Source of the DNA: Chiridota heheva
Lineage: Eukaryota > Echinodermata > Holothuroidea > Apodida > Chiridotidae
Assembly (NCBI GenBank): GCA_020152595.1
Contig: JAIGNY010001593.1
Coordinates: 234,001 to 298,000 of the forward strand
Reading direction: 5' to 3'
DNA: 64,000 bases
Shown in pieces: positions 27,401 to 30,400 of this stretch. Every line of letters starts with the position of its first letter. The first letter of the stretch is position 1. Position numbers and translations under genes: made by a program. Under the pieces are notes generated by a model that did not search any database, had not been told where the DNA came from, and saw only the letters and a program-made list of their open reading frames with translations.

Positions 27401-30400
27401 TTAAACTTTTGCAAAATACATAGTAAAATGCAACTTTGAACATTGATTAAGGGGAGGGGATTTGTCTTAACTACTTTTGTTCAAGGTTGTAGCTGGCCAG
27501 TATTAATAATAAACTGTCTGTGAACATTGATTTCATACACTTGCAGCTTTAGTGTGTGTCTGTAAGACAGGAACAAACATCACCAGATATGTGAAGTTGC
27601 AAAATCAATGAAAACAGAAAATCCCTCTCAGGAAAGTAAAATATGCCTTCTGGTACCTGCAATAGACTTACAGTACCTGCAATGGACTTACAGTACCTGT
27701 GCTATTGGGACCATTTATTACATTGATTAAATGAAAATTTTATATTGGTTATAAGGCTGGTTGATGAAAGAAGGCAAAAAATAATTTCAGAAACATTCTT
27801 CCATACCTTTCTTCAATATAATCCTGCTTTATTGGTTCTCATGCGAAGCATGCGAACCTATGTAATGGCGATTACGTCCATCTGGCCGTCCACAGACTTT
27901 TCCTGAGATTTCTTCAGAAATGGTAAAGGTTTTTTGAGATTTTCTCAGAAAATGTTAAAGTTTCTTCAAAGTTCCCCAGAAAAAGTTAAAGTTTCTTCAG
28001 ATATTTTCTATGGAAGGTTAGAATGTGGGACATGGGATGATATGGGATATCATGTGGGACATGGGGTCTCTTCCCATTTCAACAAGTCATTTGCATATAA
28101 GTTATTATATGAACTGACACTTTCATACATAGTATGCTCAATCAGGGACTGTGATTGCTAGGATGAGACTTCTTATGGAGCCTATGGGATGTCATGTGGG
28201 ACATGGGGTGGGATGCAATGTGGGACATGGGGTGGGATGCCATGTGGAACAGGGTAGAATGCCTTGTGGGACATGGTGGGATGCCATGAGTAACACAGAG
28301 TGTGACATAGGTTGGGATGCCATGTGTGACATAAGGTAGAATGCCATGTGTGACATAGGGTAGGAGGCTATGTGGGACATAGGGTAGGAGGCCAAGGGGA
28401 CATGGAATGTTATGCCATGTGGGACATAAAGTAGAATGTCATTGGGACATTGGGAGGGATACCATATGGAACATATGGTGGGACATAAGGTGGGATGCCA
28501 TGTGGCACATCAGGTGGGTAGCCACTGATGTGGGACACAGGGAGGGATGCCATTTGGGATATAGGGAGGGATTTCATGTGGTACATATGGTTGGATTAAT
28601 GTGGGACATACATGTAGGATGGGATCCATGTGGGTCATAGCGTGGGATGCCATGTAGGACATTTGTTGGAATGCCATGTGGGACATGAGGTGGGATGTCA
28701 TTGGGGACATGGGATGTGATCCATGTGGGACATAGGATGGAATGTCATGTGGGTCATAGAATGTGATGCCCTGTGGGACATATGATGGAATGCCATGTGG
28801 GACAAGGGATGGGATGTCACGTGGGACATGGGGTGTGATGCCATGTGGAAGATTATATTGAAATGCCATGTGGAACATGGGATGGGATGTCATGTGGGAC
28901 ATGTAGTGGGATGCTATGTGGGGCATGGGATGCCATGTGGGACTTAGGACATGGGGTGGGATGCCATGTGGGACATGGGATGCCATATGGGACATGGAAT
29001 GCCATGTGGGACATGGGATGCCATGTGGGACTTAGTGTGAGATGCCATGATGGTATTTACCATTCTAGTTTTTCGTGTTGTCGCCAGTACAATTAATTAA
29101 CCATCCTGCCCTTAGGTGAAGAATACTTTAAAAAAGTTATTTTATTGTTAATTTTTTGCTTTTTATCAAATTATAGGCACAGACATCCATCCGAACATGA
29201 TTGTGATAAAGTCCCTGTGACTGACTACCTAGTTCCAATGGCGAAAACTGCTCAACTAGTACAAAGGATTCAAGGTAACAATTGCCACTGCATCCTTACA
29301 ATCCAACACGTTCTCCTTGCTTGCCCCCTGTACAACCTTCCCAGAGCTTCTCTCGCTCCCCACAACTCAATTGCTGAGTTCTTCCAAAAAAATCCTCCAG
29401 ATAAAATAGTCTCCTTCCTTCAGCATGCATCCCTCTACAACCATATTTAATCCTCCTCTTCCACCCCCTCTCTACTCTGTTTTTAGTTTTTCCCATGCAC
29501 CTCCTCTCTCGATCACAGCTTTCTGGCTTTTGTTCTTGAATTTCTCTCATTCTTCCCCTGGTCTCTTTCCTTACTACCTCTAAAGTGATCTGACCTCTCA
29601 GGCACAATTTGACCTTCGTTGTCGTGGTGCCGTTAAGACCTCATCAAACAAACAAACAAACAAGGTAATCTTGTCTTCAGACAACTATGTACTTTTTTTT
29701 TTTCTTTTCAAAAAGAGCATGAAAGTCTAAAAAACACATTCTTCAGATTTTAAAAATAGCACACTTACATTAGGCCTTAAAGAATTAGTTCAGGGTTTAA
29801 GCCTTACTCTACCAGCACTTTTTTAAAAACGTGCTTGGGAGGTGGGGTTAAAGATGGGGCACCCAAAACGGTGATAATATCGCCATGTGGTAGAGTAAGG
29901 GTTAAGTGCAGGCTGATTATTGAATGGTTCTCTGTCTTTCGAGCAGCAGAGTCAGGCTCGTTCCGCTTTAGTGACCCAGTGGGCTGTGCTGCATATGTTT
30001 TCGAGTTGGCCCATTTGTTGTGGGTTGATTAACCCTTACTCTACCCGCACGTTTTTGAAAAGTCTATCTTATATGAAAGAGGACTTCAAAAGAAACAAAA
30101 TGGTGAAGAAAGCATTCAAAAATCTTATTCCGTTAAGGAGATGTTTAAGTTGAAAGTTTGGTATAATATGTATAGAAATGACTGAAATCAGACTAGTTGT
30201 GATGTCATAGCCTCAGATTCCTCAAAGTCTTTATGTGTTCTATCATATTTTGTCGTGCGATTTTGTGGCTTAAAAACCATGGGATATGTCAACAAAGTAG
30301 TAATACAGAATCTAGTAAAAGTAATTATAATTTACTACCTGAAGAAAGTTAGAGGGAAATAATTAAAATAGTTGAAAAGTTATATCAATTTTCTTTAAAC

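Follow-up and report, generated by a model that had tools for sequence, protein, structure and literature searches.

A LINE-type insertion at the exon 5/intron 5 junction of ZFAND1 in Chiridota heheva, with a splice donor in its likely target-site duplication

5'-Truncated LINE insertions are recognized by a common 3' end with a tail of short units, a variable truncation point, a short flanking repeat and a remnant of an open reading frame. We find all of these in a copy, hereafter copy C, that lies in the ZFAND1 gene of the holothurian Chiridota heheva, in a stretch of 64,000 nucleotides (the window). Compared with usual LINE insertions, copy C has the exon-intron junction as its target, so that the splice donor lies in the repeat, a short one that coincides in part with element sequence at either end. 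In maize, Ds elements make introns through duplicated donors. Introners and other transposons likewise recruit a splice site from the duplication, with a GT donor on both sides as seen here, according to the excerpted text of PMC9860276. Introners as described there are DNA-type elements that create a new intron within an exon, whereas copy C is a LINE that extends an existing intron and is not known to bring a new acceptor into use. Insertion into an exon with creation of an intron, repeated in many intron copies, is not what we observe, because copy C sits at the edge of an existing intron and its two relatives in the window, copies A and B, lie elsewhere and do not form whole introns.

The duplications listed for two disease-causing insertions in BTK, an Alu and an SVA, include a donor-like GAGTAAGT or GAGTAA (PMC4859970, in part). 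The insertions at or near donors in that source are listed as exonic and cause disease, whereas the ZFAND1 gene model is intact. The retroelement Outlaw in AUX/IAA16 of Bassia scoparia is flanked by identical short duplications and changes splice sites; unlike copy C, it is an LTR-type element with a coding change and a resistance phenotype (PMC12277486, in part). A literature search by literal phrase matching returned no case of a LINE duplicating the donor of an intact gene among the matches listed, and we do not claim its absence from print. Beyond its pair of donors, the event in ZFAND1 is an ordinary mobile-element insertion of a known kind.

The ZFAND1 gene and three LINE-type copies

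ZFAND1 brings p97 and the proteasome to arsenite-induced stress granules (PMC8999021, in part). Pfam searches with exons 2-7 of our gene model (Table 1) returned two zf-AN1 matches (71.3 bits) and, at 28.3 bits against a cut-off of 27, the initial 28 positions of UBL_ZFAND1; the rest of UBL_ZFAND1 is encoded by exon 8, which scores 18.6 bits alone, under the Pfam cut-off. Residues 139-258 match AN1-type zinc finger protein 1 (PDB ID 7y39_A, E 2.2e-25). The end of exon 5 was considered as part of a second gene copy and rejected as such, blastn in the window having returned no second match to the exon. Long minisatellites are found at 28185-29049 (unit 24/48), 26854-27228 (34), 56418-57025 (16), 52198-52521 (25) and 41485-42663 (20), the first of which stops 128 bases upstream of exon 5.

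Table 1. Positions of the gene, the LINE-type copies and the candidate splicing features (window coordinates)
Feature	Position	Strand	Remarks
ZFAND1 coding region	21498..38049	+	8 exons, one 264-codon frame, TAG stop
ZFAND1 exons 1-4	21498-21552, 24126-24168, 25237-25276, 25820-25950	+	gene model
ZFAND1 exon 5	29177..29274	+	98 nt, ends in phase 1; donor GT 29275-29276
ZFAND1 exon 6	30981..31102	+	acceptor AG 30979-30980
ZFAND1 exons 7-8	33310-33468, 37903-38049	+	gene model
Copy C, 5'-truncated LINE-type 3' end	29277..29663	+ (sense)	84%/78% identity to two window copies
Related LINE copy A	4902..5361	-	blastn and alignment; 5' end near 5361
Related longer LINE copy B	22044..23760	+	in ZFAND1 intron 1; 22044 is the open-frame start only, not the left end
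Left copy of CAAGGTAA	29271..29278	+	exon end CAAG and donor GTAA; final AA common with LINE start
Right copy of CAAGGTAA	29661..29668	+	CAA(G) possibly LINE tail; donor GT 29665-29666
LINE open-frame remnant	29277..29450	+	57 codons and TAA, in frame with ZFAND1 exon 5
Acceptor-like AG	29485-29486	+	polypyrimidine tract before AG; rule-based scan

When the copy C stretch was compared with the window by blastn, two long matches were obtained, to copy A (5287-4902 on the minus strand, 84% identity) and to copy B (23377-23758 on the plus strand, 78% identity), together with five others of 19-27 bases. Similarity to copy C begins at 29277 for both relatives. Upstream of this position A and B stay alike (..TGCAACAATTGCC) and C turns to exon sequence (..AAGGTAACAATTGCC); since A and B run on upstream as common sequence, copy C is truncated at its 5' end, at the exon edge. 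At the other end, similarity stops at 29662 for A and at 29654 for B. Homology continuing past the repeat, which the sequence-only reading had named as evidence that would speak against an insertion with duplication, was looked for and is not seen. The three copies have the 3' end GTTAAGNCCTCATCAAACAAAC in common. Copy C then runs on as a (CAAA)n tail, which we include in the copy and which leaves its right edge ambiguous (about 29660 to 29664). Copy A, which also carries a (CAAA)n tail, ends in ...CAAACAAG, followed by CAGATTTT, and copy B, in which the tail is shorter, ends in ...CATCAAAG, followed by TATACTACC.

Our comparison thus finds two marks of LINE elements: dispersed copies with a common 3' end and differing 5' truncation (A at ~5361, C at 29277, B further upstream), and a 3' tail of short A-rich repeats. 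A reverse transcriptase or endonuclease profile was not found, as expected for copy C, which is a 3' end only. Pfam searches with E values up to 1 returned no family in the 58-residue tail that copy C adds to exon 5 or in two open frames of copy B, and a search of the three read-through frames of 22001-31402 returned only ZFAND1's own and chance matches. Copies A and B contain what we take to be Cys/His and RNase H-like motifs, and the LINE label, as judged from sequence, would rest on these motifs, the copies, the tail and the truncation. Rfam at gathering thresholds gave no match in the window. The LINE 3' end pattern was absent from both viral_contigs and genome_contigs (0 matches each), which is expected for an animal repeat.

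The tails of A (4902-5361), B (23700-23760) and C (29640-29664) end in CAAG, CAAAG and CAAG, respectively, before their flanks. An element RNA, if it ended in CAAG, could pair with exon ends at donors, a pattern for which three copies are too few. Copy A would be intronic if the open frames at 7103-7507 and 7769-8167 on the minus strand are CEP76-like exons, which we presume them to be. Other elements are present in the window. A LINE-like 3' end of a different family (32390-32788, plus strand, tail CAACAAACCAAACCAAG) lies in ZFAND1 intron 7, flanked by the repeat CCCTCTTTTGCAACTT and TCCTCTTTTGCAATTT at 32390 and 32773 (14/16 match; 0 of 2000 random flanks as high), and a second 3' end of this family (GTTAAACATCAACAAACCAAGCC) was located by pattern at 51865 on the plus strand. 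An open frame at 17854-18495 on the minus strand matches Pfam zf-RVT (30.2 bits, cut-off 27.5) and is the end of a further retroelement; another at 304-1065, also on the minus strand, matches RNase H below threshold (16 bits against a cut-off of 25.8) and probably belongs to another retroelement.

Two donors for exon 5

CAAGGTAA is found exactly at both ends of copy C, at a spacing of 390 bases. The sequence-only reading had described this octamer on both sides of a LINE 3' end that hit the junction of exon 5 with its intron, and with it one donor-like CAAG/GTAA site on each side of the insert (the slash marks the exon end); both descriptions agree with our analysis, in which the insert lies in sense and the two relatives reveal the truncation. 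Both donors read AAG/GTAA, and the left one continues with CA and the right one with TC. The left donor is a hybrid, in which GTAA comes from the target and CA at positions +5/+6 from the LINE, and the right donor presumably keeps the original intron start GTAATC. The computed pairing energies with the 5' end of U1 are -6.5 kcal/mol for the left and -6.6 kcal/mol for the right donor, and 5.0% and 4.6%, respectively, of the 915 GT sites at 21001-38500 pair as well or better. Five of the other six ZFAND1 donors pair better (-6.6 to -11.7 kcal/mol) and one worse (-4.0 kcal/mol), and both exon 5 donors are weak for ZFAND1. The weakest of all seven is the exon 1 donor (21548-21560, TTAG/GTTATT, -4.0 kcal/mol).

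Use of the right donor would add 390 nt and yield a 488-nt exon, in which a stop (29448-29450) is reached after 58 added codons, as had been proposed from the sequence. The predicted product has 180 residues and, again in line with the earlier proposal, is cut ahead of the C-terminal ubiquitin-like domain. Between the stop and the next junction are 214 nt, a distance that should trigger nonsense-mediated decay (NMD). In our gene model the intact protein is obtained only from the left donor, with a frame that retains both AN1 fingers and the UBL domain.

We consider it highly probable that a non-LTR retrotransposon of the LINE type, 5'-truncated and lying in sense, entered ZFAND1 by target-primed reverse transcription where exon 5 meets intron 5, that the accompanying duplication was short (GTAA most likely, CAAGGTAA at most), and that the left donor serves as the normal site and the right one as a decoy. 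With the left, exon-side donor, exon 5 would keep its normal 98 nt and the protein would be normal ZFAND1; the LINE would then make up the opening 390 nt of intron 5. As a passive decoy, the right donor would, when used, produce a 488-nt exon and direct the mRNA to degradation by NMD. We assign the roles in this way because the whole protein is obtained from the left donor alone and because exon definition favours a 98-nt exon over one of 488 nt. The insertion is probably harmless.

Alternatively, both donors may be in use, with the right one yielding a regulated, NMD-sensitive share of transcripts that lowers ZFAND1 output. The right donor is nearer to the acceptor, the U1 energies are equal and the stop is placed 214 nt upstream of the junction, all of which would suit such a regulation. 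It appears rather unlikely to us, however, as exon definition works against an exon of 488 nt that is flanked by introns of 3.2 and 1.3 kb.

Extent and origin of the flanking repeat

The weight of CAAGGTAA lies in its position at both ends of a LINE-type copy and not in its rarity. The octamer was rejected as a rare sequence: the window has 6 copies where shuffles average 3.44, and 17 of 100 shuffles contained at least 6. One further copy, at 33465, is the exon 7 donor of ZFAND1. At the left end of the insert, AA (29277-29278) is also LINE sequence in both A and B, and at the right end the LINE tail may account for CAA or CAAG (29661-29664), given that the two relatives end in ...CAAG and ...CAAAG. 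The target-site duplication at copy C would therefore measure 4 to 8 bp, ambiguous at both ends, and as read from these overlaps probably comprises GTAA, with GT as the minimum and CAAGGTAA as the maximum. An 8-bp duplication as put forward by the sequence-only reading is accordingly less secure than put forward: GT is its secure part and GTAA a probable one, and both ends of the octamer overlap possible LINE sequence.

Chance matches were assessed by taking random places in the window as the right flank, with the left cut either free (29276-29278) or fixed. The probability of a match is 0.0062 (free) and 0.0026 (fixed) for the five bases GGTAA, 0.021 and 0.011 for the four bases GTAA, and 0.42 and 0.22 for GT. 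Mismatch-tolerant scoring of the repeat flanking copy C gave P values of 0.011 and 0.012. Copy A is flanked by an imperfect repeat, CAGATATTTT and CAGATTTTTC (CAGATATTTTACATT and CAGATTTTTCCCATT; P 0.024). At copy B, with 21961-22060 searched as its left end, no such repeat was detected (P 0.53).

These figures bear on a reading in which nothing was truly duplicated, the 5' end of the element having been joined through AA microhomology, its tail ending in CAAG, and the following GT or GTAA matching by chance; the empty site would then not read ...ATTCAAGGTAATC.... Common LINE sequence in A and B does open with AA, their tails also end in AAG before unrelated flanks, and a two-base match by chance has a P value of 0.22-0.42. 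Yet GT is missing at the truncation point in both relatives, so that a blunt insertion with GT on both sides needs chance to supply at least this dinucleotide, and a match over the whole of GTAA has a P value of 0.011-0.021. Elements of the LINE kind moreover usually leave duplications (PMC2881922, in part). We regard an insertion free of duplication as unlikely, and a target-site duplication of 4 to 8 bp at copy C as likely, though not proved.

When target-primed reverse transcription results in a duplication, the second, top-strand cut falls downstream of the first (PMC2881922, in part). At the ZFAND1 junction, a top-strand cut after GTAA would leave the exon with its own donor whether or not the gap was filled, because the cut falls beyond GTAA. 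The duplication would be the source of a second, competing donor and not the rescue of the first. The luck would lie in the position of the cut, since one upstream of CAAG, made without duplication, would have removed the donor. The proposal that tolerance of the insertion may depend on a donor regenerated by the duplication is not supported by this geometry.

Splicing and coding potential of the inserted sequence

A rule-based scan of copy C located the acceptor-like AG listed in Table 1, which is private to C and absent at these columns from A and B in an alignment of the three copies, and a second, weaker one (29517-29518) that is common to the copies. Splicing from the left donor to the first of these sites, and from the right donor to exon 6, would create a LINE-derived 178-nt cassette exon. 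Such an exon is possible, and it would act as a poison exon, its inclusion ending the protein at 139 residues (143 residues for the site at 29517-29518). The rule considers pyrimidine content only. The first site passes it, and 5 of the 7 real ZFAND1 acceptors would fail on a near-identical measure; other weak acceptors may therefore exist, as the rule is stricter than these five would pass. We hold it improbable that the LINE is spliced internally.

The open-frame remnant is unbroken in copy C, whereas copy A is broken by an internal stop and by a 1-base insertion, and copy B by single-base gaps. Its being in frame with exon 5 has a 1-in-3 probability by chance. Comparison of the three copies revealed 14 changes private to C in the 171 frame columns (3, 1 and 10 at codon positions 1, 2 and 3, respectively) versus 20 in the 203 untranslated columns. 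Eight of the 14 are synonymous, including one stop-to-stop change, and 6 are not, against an expected synonymous share of 0.28 (binomial P 0.021); the private changes of A (2 of 6 synonymous) and B (4 of 11) have no such lean. A selected dual-donor switch, in which the right donor joins the two AN1 fingers to the 57-codon, C-terminal Cys/His-rich end of the LINE, read in the LINE's own frame, and leaves out the p97-linked UBL domain, would account for these numbers and is nonetheless very improbable, since a simpler history fits them at least as well: copy C would have arrived recently from an active LINE lineage, and selection would have acted on the frame there, prior to the insertion.

If the duplication at copy C is real, ZFAND1 would hold a natural pair of near-identical donors, 390 nt apart in one intact gene and served by the same acceptor. 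With near-equal U1 pairing, such a pair separates donor strength from position and exon length. It would also show in what way a splice junction can survive being the target of a retrotransposon.
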